From positions 4,656,001 to 4,720,000 of the forward strand of contig NZ_CP012643.1 in assembly GCF_001310085.1 (NCBI RefSeq): 64,000 nucleotides of DNA. The letters are read 5' to 3'. The notes beneath the pieces are model-generated. The model had not been told where the DNA came from. It saw nothing but the letters and a program-made list of their open reading frames with translations, and did not search any database. Position numbers and translations under genes: made by a program. Below, one piece after another: positions 4,488 to 31,286 of the stretch. Each line of letters begins with the position of its first letter. Positions within the stretch are counted from its first letter, which is position 1. The stretch is from Rufibacter tibetensis. GTDB lineage: Bacteria; Bacteroidota; Bacteroidia; Cytophagales; Hymenobacteraceae.

Positions 4488-4961
4488 CTACATCTGAGTG
4501 GCTGACCCATTCGCTTTACCATTTCGTTGAACATGGGAATTCACTTCATCCATAAACCTCTCCAAGCTTCCTTCCTTTTTAAGCCTTTCCAGTGTGAAGC
4601 GTTTGGTCTTCCTCCCGTAACAGACAACCATCATTTCCCCAGTTCTCAGGGATGCATACACCATGTACACACCGAAGACCAACGGCAGGAAAGGAAGCAG
4701 TATCTCTTCGATGTAAATCCTGTTGACCCGCTCGTCACTGAAGACCTCAAGCAGCACGAAGGCGTAGAAGATGGAGAAGGCGACACACGCCAATCCGATG
4801 ACGAGTATCGCCACCCAGTTATTCACGATTCTGCCCTTCCCGAAACGTATGGATTGGATGTGGCTGAATGGTACCGTCTCATAGTTGTACCTGCTTCTCA
4901 GCAAATGGATTCCTTCGGATGACAACCCGAACTCCGAGGTCTCAAACATGTATTTCCCCAT
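4488..4961 (-). CDS. Membrane protein with PH-like N-terminus
   Basis: 157 residues. An N-terminal beta segment (FETSEFGLSSEGIHLLRSRYNYETVPFSHIQSI) resembles PH-type domains of bacterial membrane proteins. Two membrane helices follow (about 48-72 and 85-105), then a basic cytoplasmic tail. Single gene between decayed sites at 4408 and 4978. Function unknown. Confidence 0.65.
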   Translation of the reverse strand: MGKYMFETSEFGLSSEGIHLLRSRYNYETVPFSHIQSIRFGKGRIVNNWVAILVIGLACVAFSIFYAFVLLEVFSDERVNRIYIEEILLPFLPLVFGVYMVYASLRTGEMMVVCYGRKTKRFTLERLKKEGSLERFMDEVNSHVQRNGKANGSATQM

Positions 4962-9033: not shown

Positions 9034-9588
9034 TCAGTGCTTTTTAGCCGTTGCCAAGGTCTGTTTCTCTATTTCTTTCAACTCATTGCGGATATAGGCA
9101 TCCCATTTCGCTTGCTCCGCTGGGTTGATTACCCCTGAGGTCTCTCGGTCATACCTATCCTGCAGCTCAAAGAGCATGTCCACATACTCCTGGAATATGG
9201 AAGCGACCCTTGCCTGGTTAGCCCCGTTTATTTTCTGTTTATTGATATGGAGTTCCAGCCTTTTCGCAACCAACTGTGAGATATCGAAATGAAGCTGCTC
9301 ATGGTTGAGAATGTAGTCGCTCCTGTAGCCTTCCTTCACCCAAGACCTGCCTGGGTACATAATCCCCCAGGCGGAGAAAGTATAGCCGCCCGTCCAGATG
9401 TTCACCTTTGCGGTTTTCATCTGGATGGTGGTTGATATCTCAGCCCTAGCCGAGTCCTTTCTGTTAGGAGCCGCCCTGAAGTTATCCCATGACAGTTTCT
9501 GCCCGTTTGTGTATACCAGGGAATCCTGGGCTTCGGAGGCAAAGGGAATCATCAACAGGCTTATGATTGCCGCAAGTATGATTTTCAT
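9034..9588 (-). CDS. DUF922-like putative zinc protease
   Basis: 184 residues from the ATG at 9588, which creates the signal peptide MKIILAAIISLLMIPFASEAQ; upstream in-frame codons lack signal character. WDNFRAAPN after the signal and LNHEQLHFDIS (about residues 92-102) match the DUF922 family, whose HExxHFD-type motif is taken to bind zinc. Predicted secreted or periplasmic. The stop falls inside a degraded attC-like spacer at 9009-9055. Confidence 0.7.
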   Translation of the reverse strand: MKIILAAIISLLMIPFASEAQDSLVYTNGQKLSWDNFRAAPNRKDSARAEISTTIQMKTAKVNIWTGGYTFSAWGIMYPGRSWVKEGYRSDYILNHEQLHFDISQLVAKRLELHINKQKINGANQARVASIFQEYVDMLFELQDRYDRETSGVINPAEQAKWDAYIRNELKEIEKQTLATAKKH

Positions 9589-9661
9589 TCTAATAGAACC
9601 TGTCACTGACTTCTGGGTAACAAGGTCTCCCTTGTTTTGTGAAAGCGTGAAGCCAGACCAT

Positions 9662-10498
9662 TTAGAGACATTGCAGGGTGAATTCCACTTTCTTTGTTGC
9701 AGAATCATAGAACACGTAGATTAGACCGACATCTCCCCACATCAATCCCGCGTTTTCCTCCGAGTCAAGCTGAAACAGAAGCCTCATATTGCCTCCTTGC
9801 TCGTTCTTTGGGGTACCTTCACCCTGAACCCATTTAGGGTAACCACCCAATTGGCTTTGGTAATCCTGTTCACCTGTTAATCTTTCCACCACACTGTCAT
9901 AGCTTTCCCAGGGTTCATCTGGATTGAGTGTGCAGGATAATTCAACTGCTGGCTCATTGTACAAGCTAATACCCTCCCAATCAGGCAGCGATTTCACGGG
10001 TTTGAGTTCTATTCCGCAGTACTTCGATATTCCCTGACCATCTGGCTTCTCAACCATCTTAATCTTATCGGTTTCCATGTGTTCGTAAATCTTCACCAAC
10101 CATCCCTCATTATCGGTTTCCCAGGGTGACTCTTCCCAATCATAGAAGAACTGCACCAATTTTATTTCCTCTGGCAGTTCTATCCCTTCTCCGTTGAACA
10201 GTTGGAAGATAAATTCAAGGTTCCCACCGCTTTTGCTCGTTGGCCATTCCTCCCCTTGCTCGAAATAGGGCTGCCCTCCGAAGTGGGAATCCAACTGGGA
10301 GAACTCAGGTGGCCTAGATGGTTCCTGGACTTCAACCTTTGTCGCATTCCTTATTGAAGAAATGACCATTTCCTCTAAATCCCCCAATGATTTTTTATTC
10401 ATCTCTTTGGACTGGGAATCGTGCTTCTCGGAACCTGTGTTTTCGTTCTTTTTATTTTCATCATCACTGACTCCAAAGATTTTACCCCAAATACTCAT
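9662..10498 (-). CDS. DUF1963 family protein (YwqG-like)
   Basis: 278 residues, cytoplasmic. After a polar N-terminal 45 residues comes a DUF1963 domain: FGGQPYFEQGEEWPTSKSGG then FIFQLFNGEG, repeated in part near the end as LGGYPKWVQGEGTP and MRLLFQLDSEE. DUF1963 proteins are small beta-rich proteins of unknown biochemical role, often found near polymorphic toxin or immunity genes. A typical cargo gene for such an array. Confidence 0.8.
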   Translation of the reverse strand: MSIWGKIFGVSDDENKKNENTGSEKHDSQSKEMNKKSLGDLEEMVISSIRNATKVEVQEPSRPPEFSQLDSHFGGQPYFEQGEEWPTSKSGGNLEFIFQLFNGEGIELPEEIKLVQFFYDWEESPWETDNEGWLVKIYEHMETDKIKMVEKPDGQGISKYCGIELKPVKSLPDWEGISLYNEPAVELSCTLNPDEPWESYDSVVERLTGEQDYQSQLGGYPKWVQGEGTPKNEQGGNMRLLFQLDSEENAGLMWGDVGLIYVFYDSATKKVEFTLQCL

Positions 10499-15603: not shown

Positions 15604-15689
15604 TCTTTAACTTACACCTAACGTACTGGGCTCGTATGTTAGCGGCAGTTGATTAAATTAGGCAAAGGAAACGAATTAACAATAAACCA

Positions 15690-15815
15690 AAAACCAGATA
15701 GAAGGGATAGGGTGTACTTGGCCAGACACATATCGATGATGTCGTCGTTTAGAATCTCCACCCTTCTATCAACTTTCTTAGAGCCTGGACAGTACCTGGG
15801 TCCATTTCAACGAGA
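15690..15815 (+). ncRNA. Predicted IS110 bridge RNA
   Basis: Two stem-loops lie in the order known from IS621. First, GATAGAAGGG (15697) pairs with CCCTTCTATC (15761). The enclosed loop carries GTACTTGGCC (15714-15723), close to the left target GTACTGGGCT, and CGTCGTTTAG (15743-15752), the reverse complement of the right target CTAAACGGCG with one mismatch. Second, GGAC/GTCC (15787-15803) encloses ACAGTACCT, identical to the element's right end at 16982-16990, followed by ACGAG complementary to the left end CTCGT. This is the expected arrangement of target and donor guides. RNA ends are estimated. Confidence 0.7.
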
Positions 15816-15872
15816 CCGAATCAAAAGCGAGCAAAGGCGATAAAGAGAGTTACCGGTTTTAAATGTACGCCA

Positions 15873-16931
15873 ATGAAACCACATGTACTAAAGCAGGCCC
15901 TGGGAATAGACGTGGCCAAAGACTCTCTTTCCCTTTGCTTGGGCACCCTGACGCAGGATCTGGAAAAGCAGTTTGTTGCCGGTGGTGACGTGGCCAATGA
16001 CCCCAAAGGTTTCCAAAGAATGGAGAAATGGCTAGCCAAGCTCGAAGTCCACAAGGAGAAACTGGTGGTCGTGATGGAAGCCACCGGGGTATACCATGAG
16101 GCCCTGGCGCTGTACCTGCACCAGAAAGGATATGCCGTCAGCGTGATGCAATCAGGACGGGTAAAGCGCTACGCCCAAAGCCTGAGCCAGCGCTCCAAGA
16201 CGGACGCCCTGGACAGCCGGATGCTGGCCATGCTGGGCTGCGAGCGGAAACTGACGCCTTGGTCCCCACCGGACGGGACGCTGCGGCACCTGAAAGCCCT
16301 GAGCAGGGAGCGCTCCTTCCTGCTCAAGGAGAAAAACGTGGAAAAAAACCGGCTGCACGCAATAGAAGCCTCTGCCTACGGCAACCCACGGGAGGTAAAG
16401 CGCCAGGCAAAGCGGCTGAAGCTGGTGGAGGCGCAGCTCCAGGAAATCGAGGGGGAGATGAAAGGGCTGGTAGCGCAGGATAAAGCTCTGGCCGGGAAGA
16501 TCCAGTGCCTGGAAAGCATACCGGGGGTATCTTTCATCTCGGCGGCGACGGTGGTTGGGGAGACCTGCGGCTTCAGCGAGATCACCAGCGCAAAGCAGCT
16601 GGCAAGCTATGCCGGGTATGATGTGGTGCTGAAGGAATCCGGCGCTTTCCGGGGCGACACCAAAATAAGCAAGAAAGGGAACAGCCACATCAGGAGCATA
16701 CTCCACATGCCTTCCATGACGGCCGTGCGGGTCAATCCGACCCTGAGGCAGTTCTACACCCGGCTAAAGCCCAACAAGGCAAAGCCTATAGTGGCCCTGG
16801 TGGCGGTACAGCGAAAACTGCTGCTGCTCATGTACAGTCTGTTCAAGAGAAATGAGTACTACGACCCGCTATTTGAAATAAAAAAACAGCAAGGGCCGAA
16901 ACCCTTGCTGCACAGGATAGAGGCAATTTAA
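15873..16931 (+). CDS. IS110-family transposase (DEDD recombinase)
   Basis: 352 residues. The N-terminal RuvC-like part shows the acidic set GIDVAKDSL (Asp about 13), VMEATGVYH (Glu about 72) and SKTDALDSR (Asp pair about 111-114). A helical linker follows, then the C-terminal Transposase_20-type domain with SIPGVSFISAATVVGE and FRGDTKISKKGNSHIRSIL, which holds the conserved serine. Full length for the family. It would act with the predicted bridge RNA encoded just upstream to insert at CT within attC stems. Codon use is GC-richer than in neighbouring cassettes. Confidence 0.92.
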   Translation: MKPHVLKQALGIDVAKDSLSLCLGTLTQDLEKQFVAGGDVANDPKGFQRMEKWLAKLEVHKEKLVVVMEATGVYHEALALYLHQKGYAVSVMQSGRVKRYAQSLSQRSKTDALDSRMLAMLGCERKLTPWSPPDGTLRHLKALSRERSFLLKEKNVEKNRLHAIEASAYGNPREVKRQAKRLKLVEAQLQEIEGEMKGLVAQDKALAGKIQCLESIPGVSFISAATVVGETCGFSEITSAKQLASYAGYDVVLKESGAFRGDTKISKKGNSHIRSILHMPSMTAVRVNPTLRQFYTRLKPNKAKPIVALVAVQRKLLLLMYSLFKRNEYYDPLFEIKKQQGPKPLLHRIEAI

Positions 16932-16988
16932 AAATTGACATCTTCCTAAGTTAGTTTGTCTAGATAAACTTGACTTTTGACACAGTAC

Positions 16989-17043
16989 CTAAACGGCGGG
17001 CGAGGCCGTCGGCCGAGACTGGCGTTTAGCCTAACCGTTAGCT
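16989..17043 (-). repeat. attC-like site, split by the IS110 element
   Basis: The right part of the attC (CTAAACGGCG ... GTTAGCT, with GGCCGTCGGCCGA loop). The missing left end, CACCTAACGTACTGGGCT, lies at 15615-15632 on the other side of the insertion sequence. Confidence 0.8.
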
Positions 17044-31221: not shown

Positions 31222-31229
31222 TTATGAGT

Positions 31230-31282
31230 AGTAACGTACTTGGCTTTGCGGTGGCGAAACTGCCGTGAAGGTGTTGTTGTAT
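31230..31282 (-). repeat. attC-like site, short class
   Basis: 53 bp, GTAACG to GTTGTAT, arms GGCTTTGCGGTGGC / AACTGCCGTGAAGG. Confidence 0.8.
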
Positions 31283-31286
31283 GGAG

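Follow-up and report, generated by a model that had tools for sequence, protein, structure and literature searches.

A probable bridge-RNA-guided IS110-group element specialised for attC-like cassette sites in Rufibacter tibetensis and related Bacteroidota

RESULTS

An IS110-group element interrupts an attC-like site

The window analysed here, a 64,000-nucleotide stretch of the Rufibacter tibetensis genome (contig NZ_CP012643.1, positions 4,656,001 to 4,720,000), contains at 15633-16990 an intact IS110-group element inside one arm of an attC-like site, as our analysis confirmed. We regard it as highly probable that this element is guided by a bridge RNA and is specialised for attC-like cassette recombination sites. 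The insertion site, the ends of the element, empty sites, a conserved RNA fold and the covariation of guides with targets were all read from the sequence. The element measures 1358 bp on the plus strand, and the same ends are found in an identical second copy and in relatives. Its sole gene (15873-16931, plus strand) encodes an IS110 recombinase of 352 amino acids, which matches PF01548 (1e-26) and PF02371 (3e-22) and scores 209 bits against NF033542, the model of RNA-guided IS110 transposases, for which the cut-off is 140. Residues D13, E69, D111, D114 and S256 were located by motif (GIDV, MEAT, KTDALD and ESG), and the recombinase thus has the DEDD (RuvC) and PF02371 parts with the SG motif that characterise the IS110 group. 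Also in keeping with this group, the longer non-coding region (NCR) lies upstream of tnp (240 nt versus about 60 nt downstream). The only solved relatives of the recombinase found by sequence were IS621 and ISCro4.

About 33 kb of the window (1-33000) is taken up by an array of small genes, most of them on the minus strand, lying between attC-like palindromes of 60-65 nt with AAC and GTT boxes, the genes being single and in one orientation. When 15633-16990 is removed, AACGTACTGGGCT is joined to AAACGGCGGGCGAGG...CGTTTAGCCTAACCGTTAGCT, which yields an imperfect palindrome resembling the other sites of the array. A preliminary description of this DNA had placed a 1358-bp IS110 element at CT in an attC stem; its coordinates proved right, deletion does rebuild the palindrome, and empty sites were found. 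The interrupted site consists of 15619-15632 on the left (TAACGTACTGGGCT) and 16991-17043 on the right, continuous with each other in empty sites, and the element sits in the arm adjoining the gene start, antiparallel to the cassette genes. The CT core at the left end (15631-15632, plus strand) matches the CT of the right end (16989-16990); CT is single in empty sites and present on both flanks of the element, and owing to this ambiguity the limits could equally be drawn at 15631-16988.

The identical copy occupies, with the same ends, another attC-like site on a second replicon. Both copies have AACGTACTGGGCT as their left flank, and the right flanks are AAACGGCGG for one copy and ATAGGGTGG for the other. 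In genome G138 (locus L207) ACACCTAACGTACTGGGCTAAACGGCGG is unbroken and represents an empty site, and the right-hand cassettes of the window copy and of the second copy are present with intact sites in G131 (L205) and G180 (L204), respectively. A search with the joined flanks gave matches in 80 of 204 family genomes, mostly short uninterrupted sites with 73-98% identity across the joint. Testing the rejoined palindromes gave P<=0.05 in 15 of 32, which is too weak alone, and the empty sites were used instead.

The left end carries a predicted two-domain bridge RNA

The NCR at the left end (15633-15872, plus strand; 240 nt) is without a conserved open reading frame and was aligned with those of relatives. 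The comparison of 16 relatives predicts two domains, both on the plus strand: a target-binding loop at 15698-15769, comprising helices 1 and 2, and a donor-binding loop domain at 15774-15848, comprising helices 3-6, with compensatory changes in the helices of both. Over the 31 pairs of this fold, 97.8% of cells are paired (90.3% when shuffled) and 17 pairs carry compensatory changes (7.3 when shuffled), and the structure collapses when the partners are slid. The conserved two-domain fold answers a concern raised in the preliminary description, for which a fold not conserved among relatives would have been refuting. Folding of the single NCR sequence gave a weak result (z -2.1 for 15690-15850 and -1.0 for the whole NCR), so it was the comparative fold that decided, and Rfam at its gathering threshold gave no match in the window.

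Within the target-binding loop, the left target guide (LTG; GTACTTGGCC, 15714-15723) agrees with the left target GTACTGGGCT at 8 of 10 positions, and the right target guide (RTG; CGTCGTTTAG, 15743-15752) is complementary to CTAAACGGCG at 9 of 10, the tenth being a G:U pair. The joint probability of the two matches occurring in order and close together was 0.0001 in dinucleotide shuffles. In the donor-binding domain, the left donor guide (LDG; ACAGTACCT, 15789-15797) is identical at 9 of 9 positions to the right end of the element, which we delimit as 16970-16990 (shuffle P 0.001), and it is invariant across the clade of relatives save for one element with an extra base. By inspection, ACGAG at 15810-15814 forms an unbroken run of pairs with CTCGT of the left end and is the probable, albeit weak, right donor guide. 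All of these lie on the plus strand. Of the guides expected of a bridge RNA, both target guides and the LDG were thus recovered, with a weak candidate for the fourth, and the two loops agree with those pointed out earlier, one matching the left target and the complement of the right target and the other repeating the element's own right end.

This arrangement, whose order and logic had been said earlier to fit IS621-type bridge RNAs, is shared with IS621 and ISEc21 (PMC11208160, PMC11208158, PMC11187229): the NCR is upstream, there is a target loop and a donor loop, the LTG precedes the RTG, the LDG equals the right end and the CT core is that of IS621. Moreover, the recombinase is homologous over 10-331 (E 7e-33). 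Unlike IS621 and ISEc21, however, the element has an attC-like cassette target, and a subgroup of its relatives has two target loops; the right guide is also long, up to 10 nt, compared with 4 in IS621.

Another candidate affiliation is the known IS1111-attC group, which is likewise RNA-guided and inserted in integron attC sites, at one end of them in the case of ISKpn4 and ISPst6 (PMC11187229), so that the kind of target is the same. However, the NCR of that group lies downstream and its guide order is reversed, whereas the present element has its NCR upstream of tnp, guides in the IS110 order, an insertion point that lies within the arm and 9-10 nt away from the AAC box, and a match to NF033542; nor were long sub-terminal inverted repeats seen by inspection. 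Contradicted by the NCR position and the guide order, IS1111 membership was rejected as extremely improbable, and the earlier assignment to the IS110 group, made in spite of the parallel, is upheld.

Guides and targets change together among relatives

Homologues of 51-88% identity were obtained from Hymenobacteraceae, Flavobacteriaceae and Marivirga, and repeating the Flavobacteriaceae search with another centre returned the same genomes. The relatives start with CGTATGTT, end with ACAGTACCT and are inserted at CT, except that the left side reads TT in G528; the tree supports their clade at 100/99. Nearly all members are in attC-like palindromes, the exceptions being the copies of Adhaeribacter aquaticus, and AAC stands 9-10 nt from the joint in 28 of 35 left flanks; copies in unrelated targets, the other outcome that would have refuted the preliminary description, were thus not what the clade presented. 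More distant elements whose ends were placeable by copy comparison lie at other sites, and viral contigs and plasmids yielded distant relatives only.

The target guides, of which there are 10 distinct ones, covary with the targets on both sides of the core: 0 of 20,000 permutations reached the observed match, and within Hymenobacteraceae alone P was about 0.003. Guide and target share the letters GTGCTGGGC in Pontibacter, CTAAAATG in Marivirga and CTAACGCA in G528. The Adhaeribacter aquaticus copies (L047, L048 and L049) lie in a repeat of uncertain nature, AGAACCAGGCT|ATCCGGTACAAG, which is matched by changed guides. These patterns indicate that the guides change with the local attC sequence, and hence that the clade appears to track attC variants across Bacteroidota.

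Hairpins can be recognised as such, as in IS200/IS605 and attC recombination, and nearly all of the sites are palindromic, which raised the possibility that what the element recognises is the shape of the attC-like hairpin, or a protein attached to that DNA, and that the guide matches are incidental. Such recognition, however, is at odds with guides that follow the target letters on both core sides, with a position in the arm fixed at CT, and with the Adhaeribacter aquaticus guides, which changed together with an unlike target. We consider it very unlikely and favour guidance by the bridge RNA. Several findings nonetheless weigh against bridge-RNA guidance to attC-like sites. The right target of the second copy fits the RTG poorly (4 of 8), the LTG and its target differ at the second core base (C and T, respectively), and the target permutations ignore relatedness; furthermore, no integron integrase over the TIGR02249 cut-off was found in this genome.

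Unoccupied sites were also observed. An attC-like site at 31222-31286 of the window carries GTACTTGGCT, which matches the LTG at 9 of 10 positions, with CTTTGCGG adjoining on the right. Among Flavobacteriaceae, the surroundings of the element contain further sites of this type, unoccupied and in the same orientation, with 13 pattern matches versus 0 in a reversed control, at least 1-2 of the 13 not being such sites by their letters. Around the element at L069 there are five unoccupied attC-like sites in one orientation, and the site at 4567 has the letters of the occupied target. The left flank at L061, CCAACACAGTACCT, resembles a further right end of the element and not an attC arm.

Identity of the attC-like sites

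Because no integron integrase over the cut-off is present in this genome, we call the sites attC by structure only, and the array is at most similar to a cluster of attC sites lacking integron-integrases (CALIN). The structure is that of attC, in that single-gene cassettes of one orientation are separated by imperfect palindromes bearing AAC and GTT boxes; the attC label given earlier holds in this structural sense. Most sites of the array, whose arms are imperfect, escaped a crude attC finder, and the sites were read from intergenic gaps. A 484-amino-acid tyrosine recombinase encoded about 6 kb from the element copy of the second replicon (L167, 13491-14945) was considered as an integron integrase and rejected; it matches both ends of the TIGR02249 model without the integron-specific middle region. 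Among the 25 genomes carrying relatives, one (G003) has an integron integrase over the cut-off and the other 24 have none, and that gene (L194, about 9409-10302) contains an internal stop, with no attC-like array alongside.

These integrase results would suit a different explanation, in which the targets belong to another class of palindromic repeat that punctuates Bacteroidota genes, not to integron attC, and the element is guided to those. Against this stand the arrays themselves, with their single one-orientation genes and their 60-65-nt palindromes bearing AAC and GTT boxes, and also the empty sites, which have one cassette in common and diverge past the attC-like site, as cassette exchange predicts. 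We judge a non-attC repeat to be unlikely, although it merits serious consideration, and prefer to regard the targets as cassette recombination sites. Cassettes with attC-like sites and no integrase have been described in an IntegronFinder survey (PMC9024848), according to which Bacteroidota had earlier shown integrases but no cassettes and, later, a single complete integron, in Salinibacter. Unlike those results for Bacteroidota, the present array combines cassettes with the lack of an integrase in this phylum.

A Flavobacteriaceae subgroup with two predicted target loops

In 12 Flavobacteriaceae elements from Zobellia, Maribacter, Kriegella and uncultured relatives (L055, L056, L058, L059, L061, L063, L064, L068, L069, L074, L195 and L201), the NCR is about 100 nt longer, 336-351 nt where measured versus 234-248 nt in the others. 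The extra part holds a second target loop, programmed differently, and then a strong hairpin, whereas the window element has one loop; this part shows structural conservation and compensatory changes, chiefly in the hairpin, and the tree gives the subgroup one origin (90/91). Loop 2 codes GTCTCGGCT/CTATGAAACG nearly everywhere, and loop 1 is variable.

In counts that ignore shared ancestry, and with several of the groupings chosen after seeing the data, loop-1 guides fitted their own targets (P 0.02), whereas loop-2 guides showed no such fit (P 0.71). CTAAG sites are occupied by 4 of the 7 elements whose loop 1 codes CTAAGC versus 0 of 15 others (P 0.005), and the spacing between AAC box and core is one base shorter in 9 of 10 two-loop elements versus 2 of 12 (P 0.002). 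A pooled permutation taking the best of the two loops was not significant (P 0.06). Of two copies in G635, one occupies a site of the loop-1 type and the other a site of the loop-2 type, the copies being non-identical and their loops different. Taken together, these data give moderate support, suggestive rather than conclusive, to the view that some occupied targets fit loop 1 and others loop 2.

We put at about even the chance that the subgroup has two separately programmed target loops and one donor loop, with which one recombinase would address two attC variants, forming a minimal natural guide array for RNA-guided recombination. Alternatively, the extra loop may be a decoy or a decaying duplicate, only loop 2 guiding insertion; loop 2 hardly differs between elements, unlike the variable loop 1, and several targets (at L056, L069 and L201) are closer to loop 2. 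The own-target fit of loop 1 and the lack of it for loop 2, the CTAAG sites, and the helices kept with compensatory changes speak against a decoy, which we nevertheless treat as a possibility somewhat short of even. As separate target-loop and donor-loop RNAs of IS621 function in vitro (PMC11208158), the extra target loop of these two-loop elements could also act with the donor loop of another molecule. IS110 bridge RNAs have been described as a single two-stem unit (PMC12045711), and no bridge RNA with two target loops was found in the open-licence literature. In having more than one guide unit, the two-loop subgroup resembles TIGR-Tas guide arrays (PMC12045711), with which a related RNA-binding fold is also shared, as are split guides that pair with both strands; TIGR-Tas differs in its long processed arrays without recombination.

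DISCUSSION

In the mechanism that we propose, RNA expression, a circle intermediate, catalysis and the loss of attC function upon insertion follow the literature on IS621 and ISEc21. The left end would encode the two-domain RNA, one loop of which would pair with both strands of the cassette site around the CT core, inward by 9-10 nt from the AAC/GTT box adjoining the start of the gene, while the other would pair with the two element ends where they abut in the circle. In this circle, by analogy with IS621, the right end would be linked to the left end, and a promoter, TTG-N20-TATGTTAG, may thereby arise; this pattern exists at the computed junction and is presumably similar to the Bacteroidota promoter consensus. 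The RNA would then position the circle against the attC-like site at CT, and the DEDD recombinase with its RNA would insert the circle there with no target bases lost or duplicated, splitting the attC-like arm. After insertion, the attC would be expected to be inactive and the cassette boundary fixed.

No IS110-group element targeting attC was found in the open-licence literature, and what is new relative to known systems is an IS110-group, attC-addressed element with a two-loop subgroup. It represents an IS110-group counterpart of the IS1111-attC group and was apparently reached separately. The finding also brings to attention large Bacteroidota cassette arrays without a recognisable integrase. 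The two-loop relatives, if truly such, would be natural multiplexed bridge RNAs. In this clade, guides and targets have changed together and left a natural record, on which it can be tested how RNA-guided elements keep up with a target that drifts and whether cassette arrays are frozen or reshaped by them.
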